This document shows positions 15,436-59,382 of a stretch of DNA of 64,000 bases, in pieces. The number at the start of each line of letters is the position of its first letter. Position 1 is the stretch's first letter. The notes under the pieces were generated by a model. That model saw only the letters and a list, made by a program, of their open reading frames with translations, did no database searches and was not told the DNA's origin. This stretch comes from Chakrabartia godavariana. GTDB lineage: Bacteria; Pseudomonadota; Alphaproteobacteria; Sphingomonadales; Sphingomonadaceae. The position numbers and the translations under genes were made by a program. The stretch is taken from contig RKSN01000001.1 of NCBI GenBank assembly GCA_005518185.1, forward strand, positions 930,501 to 994,500, in the 5' to 3' direction.

Positions 15436-16146
15436 ATGCGACTCACCTCCTCCCTCATCGCGGTAACGGCCGTAGCACTGGCGGCTCCGGCATCAGCAGG
15501 CGTCGTGTTCACCGACAACTTCGACGCTGAGGCGGGTGGTAACTCTGCGCTGAATTATGCTGGTTTTGCCAATTTCACTGTCTCGGGCAACGTCGACGTG
15601 GTCAAGAGCGGCGACTACGGCATCACCTGCAGCGGGTCCTGCGTTGATCTCGACGGTTCGTCTGGTCCCGGCAGCATCACCAGCCTCGCTTCCTTTGCAT
15701 TCAATGCTGGTGATACCGTGCGGTATACGGCGACGCTCGGAGGCAGTCAGCGGAGCGGAAATTCTGACGGGTTTGCCCTGGGCTTCACGTTTGGTTCTGC
15801 CGTTAACATGCTGAATTATGGCTATAACTTTGCCAACTTGGGAGCCGTGGATCAGATTGTTTTTCCGTCGGTTTCCACGACGGGTGTGTCCACGTCCTAC
15901 GTCATTGGCGGCGCGCAGGGCTTTGGCTCCTATTCGCTGTTCTTCACTGCGGGTAGCGCTGGTACGCTCAAGTTCTTCGCTAGCACGTCAAGCGCCGACA
16001 ATGTCGGACCGCTCTTGGACAGCGTGAAGCTGACCATCGATGCGCGCGTGCCGGAACCCGCCACGTGGGGCCTGATGCTTGCAGGCTTCGGCCTGGTTGG
16101 CGCAGCCATGCGGCGTCGCCAGAAGGTGTCAGTCACCTTCGCCTGA
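15436..16146 (+). CDS. secreted PEPxxWA-CTERM sorting domain protein
   Basis: A 236-residue exported protein. Residues 1-21 are a Sec signal peptide ending ASA. The body is a beta-rich, Gly/Ser-rich domain with a Cys pair (CSGSC, residues 57-61) that may form a disulfide. It resembles the jelly-roll domains common in such proteins, but I cannot name one. The tail has PEPATWG (residues 206-212), then a hydrophobic helix and an arginine cluster: the PEPxxWA form of the PEP-CTERM sorting signal, frequent in Sphingomonadales and processed by an exosortase-like enzyme. No exosortase is in the window. The gene is monocistronic, ending in a strong terminator. Its function is unknown. Confidence 0.85.
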   Translation: MRLTSSLIAVTAVALAAPASAGVVFTDNFDAEAGGNSALNYAGFANFTVSGNVDVVKSGDYGITCSGSCVDLDGSSGPGSITSLASFAFNAGDTVRYTATLGGSQRSGNSDGFALGFTFGSAVNMLNYGYNFANLGAVDQIVFPSVSTTGVSTSYVIGGAQGFGSYSLFFTAGSAGTLKFFASTSSADNVGPLLDSVKLTIDARVPEPATWGLMLAGFGLVGAAMRRRQKVSVTFA

Positions 16147-52212: not shown

Positions 52213-53304
52213 TTACGAAACAGGCGCGGTTTGAACCTTCCGCGCAGCACGGGTGCGGGCGACCAGACCGGCCGCCGCACCTCCAAACAGAAGCAGCATC
52301 GGCGGGGCGGGGACATCGTTCCCGCTGGAGCCACCGTTGCTGCTCGATCCGTTCGAAGACGAAGAGGACGATGTCGACGAAGAGGTGGAAGACGATGTTG
52401 ACGAAGATGTCGACGTCGACGTGGAAGTGGACGTCGAGCTGGTCGAGCCGCCGAAACTTGAGGAGGTGCTGGTGCTGCTCGACACATTGCCGGACGAACT
52501 CGAGCTGCTCGAAACGTTGCCGGAAGAGCTCGACGTGCTCGAAACTGTGCCGCTCGACGTGGAGGAGGAGGATCCGCCTGTGGAGGATGTGCTAGATACC
52601 GTGCCCGAGGAGGTCGAGCTGGACGACCCGCCGGTCGAGGACGTGCTGGAGACCGATCCCGAAGAGGTGGAGGAGCCCCCCGTCGACGAAGTGCTCGACA
52701 CCGTCCCCGAGGACGTCGAAGATCCGCCCGTTGACGATGTGCTGGAAACATTCCCCGACGATGACCCGCCGGTGGACGATGTGCTCGACACATTCCCCGA
52801 GGATGATCCGCCCGTTGACGTCGACGAACCGCCCGAAGAGGTCGAGCTAGATCCGCCGCTGCTGGTCGAGGAGACGACAATGCTGCCGCCGCCGCTGCCG
52901 CCGCCGAAGAAGCCGCCCCCGATAAAGCCACCGCCGAAGCCGCCGATGGGACCGCCGCCAATCACGACGGGCACGGTGCCGCCACCGCCGTTCATGACAG
53001 GCTGTGCCTCGGACTGGCGGGAGCGCATGGGTTCCGCACCGGCCGACGCGAGGCGGATCGTCTGCGGTGCGCAGGACATGGACGACGTGGTGGTCGTCAC
53101 GCGCTTGATCCGCTTGACCACGCGCCCCCCCTTTTTGGGGGCCATGGCCAGGCGCTGCCGCATCGGCTTCTTCACTTTCGGGGCAGGCGCGGAATAGGCG
53201 CTGCGCATCGGCTGGGCCTGCGTTGCGTGCATCGCGCCCCCGCCGATGACCGCCCCCCCACACGCACAGGCGCAAAGCTTGGTAAGTGCCATCCGAACCG
53301 ACAT
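52213..53304 (-). CDS. Ser/Gly/Thr repeat surface protein with PEP-CTERM-like tail
   Basis: A 363-residue exported protein. A signal-like N-terminus (about residues 1-30, Cys/Gly/Ala-rich, ending ATQA) is followed by a basic segment (residues 42-70, KVKKPMRQR and KKGGRVVKRIKR), a glycine-rich part (residues 105-140) and, from about 144 to 328, repeats of Ser, Thr and Gly such as GNVSSTSSTGGSS. The tail (from residue 331) is VPAPP, a hydrophobic helix (LLLFGGAAAGLV) and ARTRAARK: a VPxP-type PEP-CTERM sorting signal. Low-complexity Ser/Thr regions in such proteins are usually glycosylated. The ATG at 53304 follows AAGGGG. Strong terminator downstream. Function unknown. Confidence 0.75.
   Translation of the reverse strand: MSVRMALTKLCACACGGAVIGGGAMHATQAQPMRSAYSAPAPKVKKPMRQRLAMAPKKGGRVVKRIKRVTTTTSSMSCAPQTIRLASAGAEPMRSRQSEAQPVMNGGGGTVPVVIGGGPIGGFGGGFIGGGFFGGGSGGGSIVVSSTSSGGSSSTSSGGSSTSTGGSSSGNVSSTSSTGGSSSGNVSSTSSTGGSSTSSGTVSSTSSTGGSSTSSGSVSSTSSTGGSSSSTSSGTVSSTSSTGGSSSSTSSGTVSSTSSSSGNVSSSSSSSGNVSSSTSTSSSFGGSTSSTSTSTSTSTSSSTSSSTSSSTSSSSSSNGSSSNGGSSGNDVPAPPMLLLFGGAAAGLVARTRAARKVQTAPVS
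52455..52845. repeat. tandem coding repeats, roughly 42-bp period
   Basis: Within the Ser/Gly gene the DNA consists of imperfect direct repeats with a period near 42 bp (plus-strand reading GACGATGTGCTGGA, GACGATGTGCTCGA and relatives). Each encodes a GNVSSTSSTGGSS-like unit. Units differ by a few bases and in length by multiples of three, so slippage would keep the frame and change copy number. Confidence 0.75.
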
Positions 53305-53661
53305 GGCGTACAACCCCTTTTACTCGTCACGCGGCAACCTGTTTTCGCCGGGCGACAGAAACGATGCGTCGGGATTGCGCACGCAACCGGGGGTCCGCAA
53401 CCGCGTTTACCGTGTTTGCAGCCAAGTTTTGGACTTTGTTGGAACCCCGGCCGAAATGGTTATGGTTAATGTGCCAAATAGGGGCTGTTTTCCTGTGTCA
53501 GGGGAAGCGCCCAAGTCCTGCTTTCATCAAAATGACCTGAAAATGGCGGCATGGCGCGCATGTGATTCGCGCGCTTGTGCCTCCGAAATGGGGTCATTAT
53601 AGCGCGCCTCAATACCGGACCGGCAGAGGCCGGGTTCGTGGCCGAGCCAGGGAGTTTTGTT
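53305..53661. other. 357-bp intergenic region between repeat protein gene and dksA
   Basis: This divergent spacer should hold the promoters of the Ser/Gly repeat protein (minus strand) and dksA (plus strand). It contains a short open frame (53246-53602, plus strand) with no ribosome site, no known motif and poor codon use, which I do not accept as a gene. I found no confident promoter, operator or small RNA signature. A G-rich, T-rich stretch around 53420-53480 is less GC-rich than the rest and may include the dksA promoter. Confidence 0.5.
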
Positions 53662-55209: not shown

Positions 55210-55674
55210 ATGGAAGCGGTCGCAATCGCCGATACAAAAGTGACGGCAAAGGTCATTGACGCCCTGTATGTGGAGGCGATGGTCCTAGCCGATGATGCGC
55301 GGGCCTATTTCGACACGTTCAGCCGGGAAGAGCGCGATCGCCTAGGCCCGGTGTTGCGTGTCGCCTTTTCCTGTGAATCGCTGAAGGTCACGACACGGCT
55401 CATGCATGTGATCGCCTGGCTGCTCGCGCATCGGAGCCAGCGCCCGACGGGCGCGGGAGAAGTGATCGATATGCGCGGCCCGTTCCGGCTGGGCGGGCCG
55501 ACCGAGACCGATCCTGATGCGGTGGCCGCATTGCCAGAAGGGGCACGCACGCGCATCGCCGCAAGTCTGGATCTCTACGCCCGCGTTGCCCGCCTGGAAG
55601 CGGAAATGACGCGCGCCGATACCCCGACAAGCCCCGCCCGCGAACTGCTCGACCGCCTGTCCCGGTCGCTCTAG
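55210..55674 (+). CDS. DUF1465 family protein
   Basis: A 154-residue cytosolic protein with no known motif beyond the family pattern: a short N-terminal helix, LVDALYVEAM-like segment (here VIDALYVEAMVLADDARAYF), a central region RVAFSCESLKVTTRLMHVIAWLL, and a C-terminal coiled coil (ARVARLEAEMTR). DUF1465 proteins occur in alphaproteobacteria next to cell-cycle and peptidoglycan genes, and some are cell-cycle regulated. No enzymatic role is known. The 3' end overlaps the end of the cupin gene by four bases. Confidence 0.78.
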   Translation: MEAVAIADTKVTAKVIDALYVEAMVLADDARAYFDTFSREERDRLGPVLRVAFSCESLKVTTRLMHVIAWLLAHRSQRPTGAGEVIDMRGPFRLGGPTETDPDAVAALPEGARTRIAASLDLYARVARLEAEMTRADTPTSPARELLDRLSRSL

Positions 55675-56525
55675 CTGCCCAGTCCGATAGTGGACCGGGC
55701 GCGCCGCAAGACCCGGTAGGCAGTCGACTTCACAATATTCTGCCTCGGATAACGCCCTGGTGCCGCGGGGGAGAGGCCAAGCGAGCGCAGCGCTGCATTG
55801 AATCCCCGCGCATCGGCTTCCCGATAGCTCCAGTTGGAACGCCATGTGATCGACAGGGAGATGGAGAGCGTTTCGCCGACCTTCACCCAATGGGGCGCCT
55901 TGACGGGGACATAGATGGCATCGCCCGGCGCGAGCGGGACTGCCTTGCCCTTGGCCGCGAAATCGTCGCGCCAGGGCAGGTTGCGATGGCCGCCAACATG
56001 GTAGCGCTCATGGTCCTGATCCGAGAGCAGCTCTGGGTCGACCTGTGGAAAGACGGTCATCGTCTTTGTGCCCCGGATCTGGAGCAGGATATTGTGTTCC
56101 GGGTCCATGTGATAGGGCGTGACCGCGCCGGGTGACGACACGAAGATGAAGCCCTGCAACGTCATCATCTCGCCCGTCACAGGTTCGACAACCGCACGCA
56201 GCGGGGCCAGGGCCTCTTCCAGCAAGACCCGATAGGCGGGATCATTCTCGATCCATTTGAGGACCATCCACGATCCATTGTCCTCAATGGAGCGGATGGT
56301 CTCGGTGATGCTCAGCCCGTTGCCGGGCACGGCCTCTGGGTCGATCCCGACAGGTAGCTGGCCGCTATTATATTCGACGTGCGCGGGGTCGGTCCGCGCT
56401 GCCAGCTCGGCAAGGCGCTCCAGAGTGAGCAGCGGGTGCGCCGTCAATCCATGGTGCAGGCGTCCGCTCGCCTCGGGGTAAAGTGTCCTGAACTCGGCCA
56501 GCCCGGCCGCGTCAAAGCTCGTCAT
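55671..56525 (-). CDS. JmjC-like cupin (cupin_8) family oxygenase-like protein
   Basis: A 284-residue protein with a cupin fold. TPYHMDPEHNILLQIRGTKTMTVF has the H-x-D pair of the iron site, and PHWVKVGETLSISLSITW the second histidine. So the 2-His-1-Asp facial triad of Fe(II)/2-oxoglutarate oxygenases is complete. The RGTKTMTVF segment could bind 2-oxoglutarate through K/R. JmjC-like bacterial members hydroxylate proteins or small molecules. The gene overlaps the acyltransferase gene by 14 bases and is the third gene of a three-gene operon. Substrate unknown. Confidence 0.72.
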   Translation of the reverse strand: MTSFDAAGLAEFRTLYPEASGRLHHGLTAHPLLTLERLAELAARTDPAHVEYNSGQLPVGIDPEAVPGNGLSITETIRSIEDNGSWMVLKWIENDPAYRVLLEEALAPLRAVVEPVTGEMMTLQGFIFVSSPGAVTPYHMDPEHNILLQIRGTKTMTVFPQVDPELLSDQDHERYHVGGHRNLPWRDDFAAKGKAVPLAPGDAIYVPVKAPHWVKVGETLSISLSITWRSNWSYREADARGFNAALRSLGLSPAAPGRYPRQNIVKSTAYRVLRRARSTIGLGS

Positions 56526-57687
56526 GGTCCCGTAGCCTCTGATCCTTAGGTTTCGATTGGCGGAACTGCTTGATGGCGGACCATCCCGCCTCGGCGAGGC
56601 GCACGGCGCGGAAGAGCATGGTCGTGCGGACGCCCCGACGGGGGAGGGCGATGCGCACCATTTCCCGCCGGTCGCGCCACAGGCTGTTGATCATCGGGTG
56701 ATCTTCAACCGCGCAACTGTCCATCCAGCAAAAAGCTGGGTCTGAAAGGCGCTGCAAATTTGCCTTTTCAATGAGAATGCCCGGCGAGAAGCGGGCATAG
56801 CTCTCGTCATAAGCGATCTTGAAGGAAAGAGCGCCGTCACCCGCCAGCAGGTTGACGAGCATGGCGACCACGTCCTGGCCCACGCGCAGCCGCAGCATCT
56901 CGGCCTTTCCGGTCGCAAGCCCTGTCGACAGAGCCTCCTCGAAAAAGGAACGGCGCCCGGTTTCGAGGGCAAGGGCTGCGCCATCCTGACCTTTCCAGCC
57001 AGCGGCCTCAAGCGTCAGAAAGTCCTCGATCCAATCGGCTGCGCCGTCACTGGACCGGAGTATTTCGAACCGCACCTCGCCCAGTTCAGCAAGTCGGTTC
57101 TCGAGCCGGGCGATTTCCTTGCGCTTCTTCTTGCGGACCGTGGCCGCCCAATAATGCTCAGGCGTGTCGCCGGCGCACAGGAGCGCGCGCGAATATCGGT
57201 GGACGACGGCGCTCGGGCGTCGCGTCGCCCGGCAGACATCGAGGAGCGCGCGCGTGACGGCGCTGACCGCCGGCATCTCGGACAGGTACAGGATATCGGT
57301 GCCCGGCCAGTCCCGATCAAAGCACGCAAGTGTCGCCGTCCAGAACTCATGCTCCGCGCCACGCGCCACCAGCGGCACGCCCAGAAACTGGTTGTAGTGC
57401 AGCCAGTTTTCGAGCGCGGGCAGGGGGCTGCGTCCATAAGTCTGGCCGCTGCGCACCGGCATCAGGCCGATCAGCGACCCGTTGGCATCACGGACGGTCA
57501 GGATCTTGAGGCTTCGCGGCGTGTCGAGGTGGTGCAGGCTTGGCTCCAGAAACCAGCGCTCATAAAAGCTGTTGGCGTCGCTGGCGTGTGCGGCGAGCCT
57601 GTCCCACTCCGGAGCGAGCCGGGATACATCTTCGGGATTGAGGAGTTCTGCCCCGGCCACCGATGCGAGGCGTGATGGCGCGCTCAT
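56512..57687 (-). CDS. GNAT-like acyltransferase (BioF2/CelD type)
   Basis: A 391-residue protein with a double GNAT-like (FemAB/BioF2-like) fold. RKKKRKEIARLENRL (residue about 180) and the GWKGQDGAALALETGRRSFFEEAL segment are typical of the group that N-acylates amino sugars or polysaccharide amines. The C-terminal IAYDESYARFSPGILIEKANLQ segment is the usual acyl-CoA-dependent core. It has no membrane helix. It overlaps the deacetylase by four bases and the cupin by 14 bases, so the three products are made together. Substrate unknown. Confidence 0.76.
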   Translation of the reverse strand: MSAPSRLASVAGAELLNPEDVSRLAPEWDRLAAHASDANSFYERWFLEPSLHHLDTPRSLKILTVRDANGSLIGLMPVRSGQTYGRSPLPALENWLHYNQFLGVPLVARGAEHEFWTATLACFDRDWPGTDILYLSEMPAVSAVTRALLDVCRATRRPSAVVHRYSRALLCAGDTPEHYWAATVRKKKRKEIARLENRLAELGEVRFEILRSSDGAADWIEDFLTLEAAGWKGQDGAALALETGRRSFFEEALSTGLATGKAEMLRLRVGQDVVAMLVNLLAGDGALSFKIAYDESYARFSPGILIEKANLQRLSDPAFCWMDSCAVEDHPMINSLWRDRREMVRIALPRRGVRTTMLFRAVRLAEAGWSAIKQFRQSKPKDQRLRDHDEL

Positions 57688-58724
57688 GGGGCTGCAACCA
57701 GCTCGCGTTCCAGCTCGGCATAGCGCACCGGCGTCACCCCGAGTGTATCGAAGGCCTCAAACACAGCGTCCCACCAGCCCCAGAAGCGATCCAGATCGGC
57801 TTGCGACTGGACATAGGGCGTGTGCCCCATGGCCAGCGTGGGGGAGTGAAAGGAGAGGCTGAAGATGTCGAGCCCGTCCGACACCATGGCGCGGATTGCT
57901 TCGATCGCATGCTCTACGGGCGTGCCCTCTGGCGTCAGCGGGACGCGCGTCAGCATGGCCGATCGCGCGAGCGGCCCGCGCAGTCCAGCCGAACGGTAAA
58001 GTCCCGGAAAGCGCCGCAAATGGCCCGTCCAGCCGCTGGACAGAGGCATCTGGACAATGCCTTCGGACGAGCGCCAGGGCCAGAGCGGGCAGGACGAATA
58101 ATCCGGCCCTTCTTCGTTCGAATAATCGAACAGGGAACGAACCGAGACGTCCATCCGGTATCCAAGCGCGCGCAGATGGGCCATCGTGCTTGACCCAAGG
58201 CCGTAGCGCCCGGCCCGAAACACCGTGGGCGGCGCGCCGAGAAGGTCCGACAGGGCCGCCGTCAGCGTCGCCAGTTTCTCGAACTGCAGGTCTTCTGGCA
58301 GGTTTCCCGTGAAGCTGTTGGGGATGTTGACGGCCTCGCGGTGGGGCGGGGTGACCCAGGGGTGAAGATGGGCGCCCACATCGCAGGCCCCCGAACGTGC
58401 CAGCTCACCGATGATGGGCGCACTGTCCGCATTGGTTACGACCGGATAGTCGCACAGGTAGACGGGGTGCACGCCCATATCATTGAAGCGCGCGGTCGCG
58501 GCAGGCAGGGCCGCAATGGCGCGGGTCGATTGCGACGCGCGGGAAAAGTCGGCGCTCCAGTCAAACTCTTCTTCGGTATCGACGAAGATGATGAACCTGC
58601 GGCCAAATTCCGGGCGCGGATGTAGACGCGCGCCGGGCAGGACCGGGCATCGGGGCGCCGGGCTCTCCATCGTTGGCGCGCCTGCGACCTTGGGTTCAAT
58701 ATAGGTCATGACAGGGTTGCGCAT
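57684..58724 (-). CDS. polysaccharide deacetylase family protein (WalW-like)
   Basis: A 346-residue NodB-fold protein. FVDTEEEFDW carries the D-x-E/D residues (a typical metal DD pair is replaced in part by DTEE), and VGAHLHPWVTPP holds the H-x3-H metal-binding histidines. The long pattern, with a late D-V-S-V-R-S-L-F-D-Y motif and SFHSPTLAMGH, fits the WalW-type deacetylases found near cell-surface glycan genes. No signal peptide is seen. It is the first gene of the deacetylase-acyltransferase-cupin operon and divergent from recO, with a 43-bp gap. Substrate unknown. Confidence 0.8.
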   Translation of the reverse strand: MRNPVMTYIEPKVAGAPTMESPAPRCPVLPGARLHPRPEFGRRFIIFVDTEEEFDWSADFSRASQSTRAIAALPAATARFNDMGVHPVYLCDYPVVTNADSAPIIGELARSGACDVGAHLHPWVTPPHREAVNIPNSFTGNLPEDLQFEKLATLTAALSDLLGAPPTVFRAGRYGLGSSTMAHLRALGYRMDVSVRSLFDYSNEEGPDYSSCPLWPWRSSEGIVQMPLSSGWTGHLRRFPGLYRSAGLRGPLARSAMLTRVPLTPEGTPVEHAIEAIRAMVSDGLDIFSLSFHSPTLAMGHTPYVQSQADLDRFWGWWDAVFEAFDTLGVTPVRYAELERELVAAP

Positions 58725-58767: not shown

Positions 58768-59382
58768 ATGGGGTCAGCTGTGATCATCCGGACCCCCGCG
58801 ATCGTCTGTTCCGTGCGGCACCATGGCGAGCATGGCGTCATCGTGCGCCTGATGACGCCCGACCATGGACTGGTGGCCGGTTATGTCCGGGGCGGTCGCT
58901 CGCGCACGATGCGGCCCGTCCTGATGCCGGCCAATCTTGTCACGGCCGAATTTCGGGCGCGTCTGGCAGGACAATTGGCGGGGGTGTCCGTCGAACTCGT
59001 TCAGTCGCGCGCGCCGCTGATGTCCGAACCGCTGGCAGCCCTCGCGCTGGAATGGTGCTGCGCGCTGACATCGGTGGCATTGCCCGATGAACAGAATTAT
59101 CCTGCCCTCTTTCAATCACTTGCAGCAGTACTTTCAGCAGTTGAGGCAGGTGATATCGTACGCGACTGGGCAGGGGCGCTGGCGGGGTATGAACTGCTGC
59201 TGCTGCGCGCGCTAGGATATGGCACACAGGTCGGCGCGATGCCGCAAGACTGGCCAGAGACGTTCGCTCTGCTCAATGCGAATGGTGCCAAGCTTGAGCG
59301 CCATATCCTGCAGGGGCGCACGGCTGATCTGCTCTCCGCGCGGGCACGATTGATCGACAGGTTGAAAAGGGCGGTTGCCTAA
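58768..59382 (+). CDS. recO: DNA repair protein RecO
   Basis: A 204-residue protein of recombinational repair: RecO loads RecA on SSB-coated DNA with RecR. The N-terminal OB-fold segment (TPAIVCSVRHHGEHGVIVRLMT, in part) and the helical C-terminal half with LLLLRALGYG fit RecO, but the zinc-site cysteines of some species are not present. The ATG at 58768 is used. A GTG at 58780 is possible. No SOS box is seen in its short upstream space. Confidence 0.85.
   Translation: MGSAVIIRTPAIVCSVRHHGEHGVIVRLMTPDHGLVAGYVRGGRSRTMRPVLMPANLVTAEFRARLAGQLAGVSVELVQSRAPLMSEPLAALALEWCCALTSVALPDEQNYPALFQSLAAVLSAVEAGDIVRDWAGALAGYELLLLRALGYGTQVGAMPQDWPETFALLNANGAKLERHILQGRTADLLSARARLIDRLKRAVA

Follow-up and report, generated by a model that had tools for sequence, protein, structure and literature searches.

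Three minus-strand genes of Chakrabartia godavariana (Alphaproteobacteria, Sphingomonadales) encode a NodB-fold deacetylase-like protein, a tandem-GNAT transferase and a JmjC/Cupin_8 oxygenase. They lie in a stretch of 64,000 nucleotides (the window), which is C1:930501-994500 of the 3.17-Mb source genome (G000). On balance, it appears somewhat probable that the trio works in the cytoplasm as a module that tailors a surface polysaccharide, one produced with the XrtA (exosortase A) system of Sphingomonadales. Because its relatives sit in, or travel with, the XrtA-linked polysaccharide system, the trio is probably an unrecognized polysaccharide finishing step. The phylogenetic profile matches XrtA across 60 genomes, and co-location with XrtA-associated genes is seen in more than one lineage, but not in the source genome. 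The parts of the trio are of known kinds; the added JmjC oxygenase and the placement in the XrtA system appear to be new.

Association With the XrtA System

Gene presence was compared across 60 genomes, the source genome and 59 relatives, counting strong matches; the XrtA system was scored as present if TIGR03109 or TIGR03006 matched above its cut-off, and the presence lists were compiled by hand. Weak, paralogue-like matches to the transferase (G041, G042, G047, G048, G058) and the oxygenase (G034) were left out, the fragmented deacetylase of G019 and that of G018, with an in-frame TGA, were both scored as present, and two query proteins (P0001 and P0002) start one codon short, missing the first Met. 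The deacetylase and the XrtA system are both present in 36 genomes and both absent from 18, with two genomes carrying the deacetylase only and four XrtA only, i.e., the two agree in 54 of 60 (Fisher test, 1.2e-9). All 18 genomes with the oxygenase have both. Flagellin, used as a control, shows no association with the XrtA system (P 0.54), the deacetylase (P 0.37) or the oxygenase (P 0.35).

Gene neighborhoods come from scanning genome_contigs (84,980 species) with an alignment of the oxygenase, and the best 80 of 522 confirmed loci were taken; their titles name Sphingomonadales genera or uncultured bacteria, in a few cases only Proteobacteria, Pseudomonadota or Gammaproteobacteria. Eight of these loci (L104-L107, L109, L131, L137, L141) also match the 60-genome set, and the two sets are therefore not independent. 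XrtA-associated genes were identified by BLAST with reference proteins from L177, L133, L138 and L130, themselves among the 80, and from L069. The neighborhood genes are codon-score calls, which miss some genes, and many loci end at contig edges, so that neighbor counts are lower bounds. At least two XrtA-associated genes are present in 21 of the best 80 loci, and XrtA itself in 16, namely 14 of the 16 titled Sphingopyxis plus L145 and L164; of the remaining two Sphingopyxis loci, L153 ends at the transferase, at a contig edge, and L180 has another neighborhood.

In Sphingopyxis italica (L177), NCBIfam models identify TIGR03015 (ATPase), TIGR03006 (deacetylase), TIGR03019 (FemAB), TIGR03087 (glycosyltransferase), XrtA and TIGR03108 (amidotransferase) in this order, and the transferase and the oxygenase come directly after. 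All three genes of the trio are found in L138, in the order TIGR03099, TIGR03098, deacetylase, flippase (Polysacc_synt_3), transferase, oxygenase, a second Acetyltransf_6 gene, a TIGR03101-like hydrolase (46 bits, short of the 202.75 cut-off), a TIGR03100 hydrolase and a glycosyltransferase. In L133, TIGR03013, PrsK and PrsR lie 4 to 9 kb from the transferase-oxygenase pair. The deacetylase has a similar setting in other families of Sphingomonadales, where 14 genomes carry it: at least one XrtA-associated gene is located within 10 kb in 8 of the 11 loci fetched (L063, L066-L070, L097, L099).

The source genome carries its XrtA locus (C1:1151765) on the contig that also bears the trio, at a distance of about 160 kb; this locus has a TIGR03006 gene of its own and, close to it, a FemAB-type gene (C1:1154016). 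The initial annotation had likened the trio to XrtA/PEP-CTERM-linked deacetylase plus FemAB pairs. The genomic link is real, but the window proteins do not belong to those families: the deacetylase-like protein matches no NCBIfam model at E<=1 (TIGR03006 has a cut-off of 276.2 bits), and BspF is the sole model that the transferase matches at E<=1 (TIGR03019 has a cut-off of 260.35 bits). A true TIGR03006 member is found elsewhere in the genome (G000:C1:1154921; 396.9 bits). With no match to either model and separate such genes present, the trio does not supply the deacetylase and FemAB that belong to the XrtA system itself. Among the NCBIfam models reached, none covers a JmjC oxygenase with a deacetylase/FemX-like pair or their place in the XrtA system.

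Organization of the Three Genes

The phylogenetic distribution of the trio is nested. Strong matches to the deacetylase are found in 38 of the 60 genomes, to the oxygenase in 18 and to the transferase in 17; every genome with the transferase has the oxygenase (17/17), and every genome with the oxygenase has the deacetylase (18/18). The co-occurrence on which the initial annotation had staked a shared pathway thus extends to other genomes, with 17 of the 18 oxygenase genomes also carrying the transferase. A contiguous trio is present in 7 of the 17 genomes that have the transferase-oxygenase pair (G000, G002, G005, G009, G012, G023, G033).

Adjacency, defined as less than 300 bases on the same strand, and the bit thresholds for neighbors were set for this analysis. 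The transferase adjoins the oxygenase in 67 of the best 80 loci, and their frames overlap in 65 of these 67 related pairs, which argues that the overlap is more than chance. A 4-base overlap is seen in 43 of 67 pairs if the start codon nearest the stop is taken, or in 40 of 67 with the first ATG; a small number of large overlaps stem from uncertainty about the start. In 20 loci, the deacetylase is no more than 10 kb from the oxygenase. The order is deacetylase-transferase-oxygenase in ten, deacetylase-flippase-transferase-oxygenase in six (with the flippase on the opposite strand and an extra small frame in one locus) and transferase-oxygenase-deacetylase in three; in the last locus the deacetylase is about 8 kb away. 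Sphingobium boeckii (L109) is an example of a contiguous trio. Hence the three-gene operon of the initial annotation stands in part: an overlapping trio recurs in other genomes, but the tight core is the transferase and the oxygenase, and the deacetylase-like gene is a looser, recurrent companion in three arrangements.

Thirteen oxygenase loci lack the transferase; eight of them are titled Novosphingobium, and L173 begins at the oxygenase, at a contig end. In three Novosphingobium loci (L130, L139, L176), the oxygenase is followed by a different NodB-type gene, as though a second kind of deacetylase had filled the slot; that of L130 (10852-11826) matches PF01522 and has a 4-base overlap. The second Acetyltransf_6 gene after the oxygenase is found at L138:10822-11898, L141:10849-11895 and L133:10843-11904, and its homologues in the source genome sit in the XrtA region (G000:C1:1165102).

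The Encoded Proteins

The oxygenase matches Cupin_8 (E 9.7e-9; 35.9 bits against a gathering score of 27.4) and JmjC_2 (E 7.6e-6; 25.9 bits against 22), and its nearest PDB sequences are JMJD5 (profile E 1.1e-8) and then FIH. Residues H139, D141, N145, K154 and H212 are invariant in 37 of 37 aligned rows, and the H-x-D...H triad and K154 align to JMJD5; a Lys of this type is the 2-oxoglutarate Lys in such oxygenases. Judged from its sequence, i.e., from the Pfam score, the iron triad and the Lys, the protein is a JmjC/Cupin_8 2-oxoglutarate oxygenase. In a plasmid search, only two replicons of Paraburkholderia largidicola matched it, at 29% identity. One is annotated, and there the oxygenase homologue has no named GNAT or deacetylase beside it, most neighbors being hypothetical; in the other, the stretch around the homologue carries no annotation.

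The transferase matches Acetyltransf_6 (PF13480) in its C-terminal half (E 1.1e-21; 78 bits against a cut-off of 22). Its structure model (pLDDT 94.0) is a FemX-type tandem GNAT over residues 10-364, with fold matches to FemX (entries with Z of about 20.9 across some 310 residues), to Sbb17, a peptide synthase that depends on aminoacyl-tRNA (Z 19.8), and to MprF (Z 17.9). With PF13480 above its cut-off and two GNAT domains in the model, the protein is a predicted tandem-GNAT transferase of the Acetyltransf_6 type. A PDB sequence search gave nothing useful, the matches to ribosomal proteins being judged spurious. The type IV secretion system (T4SS) effector BspF (NF047385) is not a suitable assignment, as the score of 142.2 bits falls below the 775-bit cut-off.

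No Pfam or NCBIfam family matches the deacetylase-like protein significantly, and Polysacc_deac_1 (PF01522) does not match it at E<=1. A PDB sequence search was likewise of no use, and a profile search reached deacetylases only at E 0.04 and 0.25. Its AlphaFold model (21 alignment rows; pLDDT 86.3) finds as its top PDB fold match a polysaccharide deacetylase (3rxz; Z 22.7, rmsd 2.9, 242 residues), followed by Helicobacter pylori PgdA (3qbu; Z 22.3), ArnD (8t0j; Z 17.6) and WbmS (3hft; Z 14.7), and the model thus has the NodB fold of CE4/NodB deacetylases. Residues E51, E52, H121, R173, D192 and H293 are invariant in 32 of 32 aligned rows, and D49 is conserved in 31 of 32. From the fold and the conserved residues, we infer that the protein is a working deacetylase.

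The initial annotation had named a NodB-fold deacetylase, a double-GNAT acyltransferase and a complete-triad cupin oxygenase. The models agree with the first two folds (the former despite the lack of a significant Pfam match), and the triad H139/D141/H212 is complete in every aligned row. The word acyltransferase goes further than the evidence: a FemX-type fold, as in aminoacyl-tRNA-dependent enzymes, leaves an amino-acyl donor as open as acyl-CoA. By hydropathy, none of the three proteins has a membrane or signal segment (the highest 19-residue mean is 1.57; the deacetylase-like protein peaks at 1.22, with no signal peptide or membrane stretch evident), and cytoplasmic work is therefore likely.

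Proposed Chemistry and Related Systems

In the pathway that we favor, the NodB-fold enzyme would strip an N-acyl group from an amino sugar of a lipid- or nucleotide-linked precursor, the FemX/HfsK-like tandem GNAT would acylate or amino-acylate the amine thus exposed, and the JmjC oxygenase, with Fe(II), O2 and 2-oxoglutarate, would hydroxylate either the added group or its donor. By analogy with HfsH/HfsK, the deacetylation, re-acylation and hydroxylation of the amino sugar would all precede polysaccharide export. The substrates, the donor, the order of steps and the action of all three enzymes on one molecule are what we infer for the trio as a whole.

A narrower version, which is unlikely, is that the polysaccharide or a lipid-linked precursor carries a hydroxylated amino acid: an amine is freed, a residue is loaded from an aminoacyl-tRNA, and its side chain is hydroxylated by the JmjC enzyme. 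It is suggested by the FemX fold, which permits an aminoacyl-tRNA donor, and by the fact that JmjC enzymes commonly hydroxylate amino-acid side chains. If true, it would amount to ribosome-independent amino-acylation and JmjC hydroxylation of an exported glycan within an exosortase polysaccharide system.

The transferase shares its overall fold with FemX/FemA, Sbb17 and MprF (Z 17 to 21), at only 6-12% identity in the aligned rows; we know of no JmjC partner for transferases of these types. The oxygenase shares with JMJD5 and FIH the H-x-D...H triad, and its conserved Asn and Lys positions line up with JMJD5, but the match spans only about 100 residues (130-229 of 284), and the window oxygenase has bacterial partner genes. 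The deacetylase-like protein resembles H. pylori PgdA, ArnD and WbmS in fold and differs from them in its motif 2, which reads H/Q-L-H-P-W; this type goes by the name WalW. The TIGR03006/TIGR03019 pair is of the same fold classes and occurs in the same genomes, in several lineages at the same locus, yet similarity between that pair and the window proteins is only weak.

In Caulobacter, the deacetylase HfsH and the tandem GNAT HfsK are proposed to modify the same holdfast polysaccharide, with HfsK perhaps acylating amines exposed by HfsH; FemX is the closest solved homologue of HfsK, and HfsK orthologues cluster with exopolysaccharide genes (PMC5362036, in excerpt). The hfsK gene lies outside the hfs locus, and in H. 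baltica HfsH matters for adhesion (PMC8449245, in excerpt). The likeness to the trio is that of a deacetylase and a FemX-like tandem GNAT proposed to serve one exported polysaccharide. The differences are the location of hfsK and the lack, in the available excerpts of both papers, of any oxygenase partner described for the Caulobacter pair. Binding of c-di-GMP is a feature of HfsK. In a literature search on exosortase-linked deacetylases, GNATs or JmjC/cupin oxygenases, the gene set is not described in the titles and abstract openings listed; this is a weak negative, as subscription papers lie mostly outside the search.

Contrary Observations and Alternative Explanations

Several observations weigh against a polysaccharide-tailoring role tied to XrtA. 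The Fisher tests ignore relatedness among genomes, and exceptions to the profile occur in both directions: the XrtA system is present without the deacetylase in G004 (78% complete), G039, G051 and G056 (the latter three from one family), and the deacetylase without the XrtA system in G024 and G034 (67% complete). The deacetylase lies elsewhere, at least 41 kb away or on another contig, in 8 of the 17 pair-bearing genomes, and in G010 and G011 it is carried on a different draft contig from the pair. It is not found within 10 kb in the Sphingopyxis loci in which the pair is part of the XrtA run, the rest of those genomes not having been searched. In eight other genera of Sphingomonadaceae, neither the pair loci nor the deacetylase loci show XrtA-associated genes; the pair there adjoins housekeeping genes (hisG, hisD, nusB, thiL and others, with representatives annotated), and the stand-alone deacetylases come after a HisKA-domain gene. 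The deacetylase-like protein itself departs from the usual NodB enzymes, which have motifs 1 and 2 with an Asp-His-His metal site: its motif 2 is altered, with H-x-H spacing, and position 119, His in the window protein, is Gln in 18 of 32 rows, so that the metal site probably differs from the textbook one. Finally, deletion of hfsK and its paralogues in H. baltica caused no biofilm defect, and deletion of hfsK did not matter for adhesion (PMC8449245, in excerpt).

A wider sample of 200 genomes of the phylum loosens the link further. The deacetylase family is present in 41 of them, of which 27 have no exosortase match at all, and 13 of the 20 phylum deacetylase loci fetched lie away from recognized XrtA-type genes (L204 and L209 have no more than a general amidotransferase homologue). 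The family is nevertheless enriched where XrtA scores above its cut-off (7/10 genomes vs 34/190 others; P 7e-4), and seven of the fetched loci adjoin XrtA-type genes, by NCBIfam in L207, L210, L217 and L218 and by BLAST only in L212, L215 and L222; in L217, TIGR03019 narrowly misses its cut-off, and neither of the two TIGR03108 matches reaches its own. The oxygenase profile matches 11 of the 200 genomes, four from the window's family, its own included, and seven distant ones from the same class, Alphaproteobacteria. In all seven distant loci (L234-L240), an Acetyltransf_6-type gene is adjacent, on the same strand in six (identified by Pfam in six and by profile only in L234), and none of these genomes has an XrtA match. 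The partnership between transferase and oxygenase therefore probably predates XrtA and extends beyond it.

It is these distant pairs, together with the housekeeping neighbors in the eight other genera and the greater conservation of the pair than of the trio (67 vs 20 of the best 80 loci), that lend some credit to an independent two-enzyme module. In such a case, which we consider rather unlikely, the transferase and the oxygenase would make, e.g., an N-acyl amino acid lipid or another surface lipid, the deacetylase would have joined them in a few genera since both serve the envelope, and the link to XrtA would be loose. Yet the deacetylase and the XrtA system accompany the oxygenase in 18 of 18 genomes, the pair ends the XrtA gene run in Sphingopyxis and adjoins XrtA-associated genes in other Sphingomonas loci, and even one distant pair, L239, is near a flippase and an amidotransferase homologue.

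Modification of proteins, in which the GNAT would acylate protein amines and the JmjC enzyme would hydroxylate side chains as JMJD5 and FIH do, is improbable. The closest solved oxygenases by sequence are indeed JMJD5 and FIH, and BspF, the only NCBIfam match of the transferase, is described as a crotonyl transferase, but that match reaches 142 bits against a cut-off of 775, the transferase is closest in fold to FemX, Sbb17 and MprF, whose targets are precursors, small molecules and lipids, and polysaccharide genes are neighbors in several lineages. It is equally improbable that the three genes, contiguous in only 7 of 17 pair genomes, have unrelated roles and lie together by chance or for convenience as an operon: the deacetylase is found near the pair in three arrangements, frames overlap, and the phylogenetic profile is nested.

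The Locus and Its Surroundings

The overlaps of 4 and 14 bases reported for the trio by the initial annotation match the coordinates in Table 1. The three open reading frames are real genes, because relatives retain the same proteins over most of their length, at 28-79% identity. A scan of the operon gave 1 promoter and 3 terminator sites, where shuffled sequences average 0.5 and 2.0. PADLOC gave no match for the three proteins, and a defense system was set aside. A relationship to bacterial ceramide synthase (bCerS) was also considered as a possibility.

Table 1. Features in and around the three-gene cluster (window positions).
Feature	Position	Strand	Remarks
NodB-fold deacetylase-like gene	57684-58724	minus	346 aa, ATG start
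Tandem-GNAT transferase gene (Acetyltransf_6, FemX-like fold)	56512-57687	minus	391 aa, ATG start
JmjC/Cupin_8 Fe(II)/2-oxoglutarate oxygenase gene	55671-56525	minus	284 aa, ATG start
Overlap, deacetylase-like stop/transferase start	57684-57687	minus	4 bases
Overlap, transferase end/oxygenase start	56512-56525	minus	14 bases
DUF1465 gene	55210-55674	plus	Pfam E 5e-36
recO-like gene, upstream of the trio	58768-59382	plus	Pfam
Secreted-looking PEP-CTERM protein	15436-16146 (approximate)	plus	PEPxxW type
Ser/Gly-rich low-complexity protein	52213-53313	minus	PEP-like variant tail

The DUF1465 gene is convergent with the oxygenase gene, and its stop shares 4 bases with it; its product scores 70 bits against the protease adaptor RcdA, under the cut-off of 170. 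The PEP-CTERM-like proteins that had been noted in the window are there in part: the secreted-looking protein has a clear tail, VPEPATWGLMLAGFGLVGAAMRRR, with the end VPEPATWGLMLAGFGLVGAAMRRRQK, but the Ser/Gly-rich protein, which has no Pfam or NCBIfam match, ends in VPAPPMLLLFGGAAAGLVARTRAARK, only a PEP-like variant. A second, shorter exosortase in the source genome (G000:C3:405619) is perhaps the partner of the former.

Among the stand-alone deacetylase loci, L049-L051, L058, L060 (7728-9440), L061 and L065 are near an Lrp/AsnC regulator; in L060, HisKA is the sole Pfam match of the gene that precedes the deacetylase.

Implications

Little is known so far, to our knowledge, of the chemistry of XrtA/PEP-CTERM-linked polysaccharides. 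If the trio acts as we propose, the XrtA system would gain candidate enzymes so far unannotated, including an oxygenase that depends on O2 and 2-oxoglutarate, and a poorly known glycan chemistry would become testable gene by gene in Sphingopyxis, Sphingomonas and Sphingobium. The conserved pairing of a GNAT with a JmjC oxygenase across Alphaproteobacteria would give HfsK-type transferases a new type of partner.

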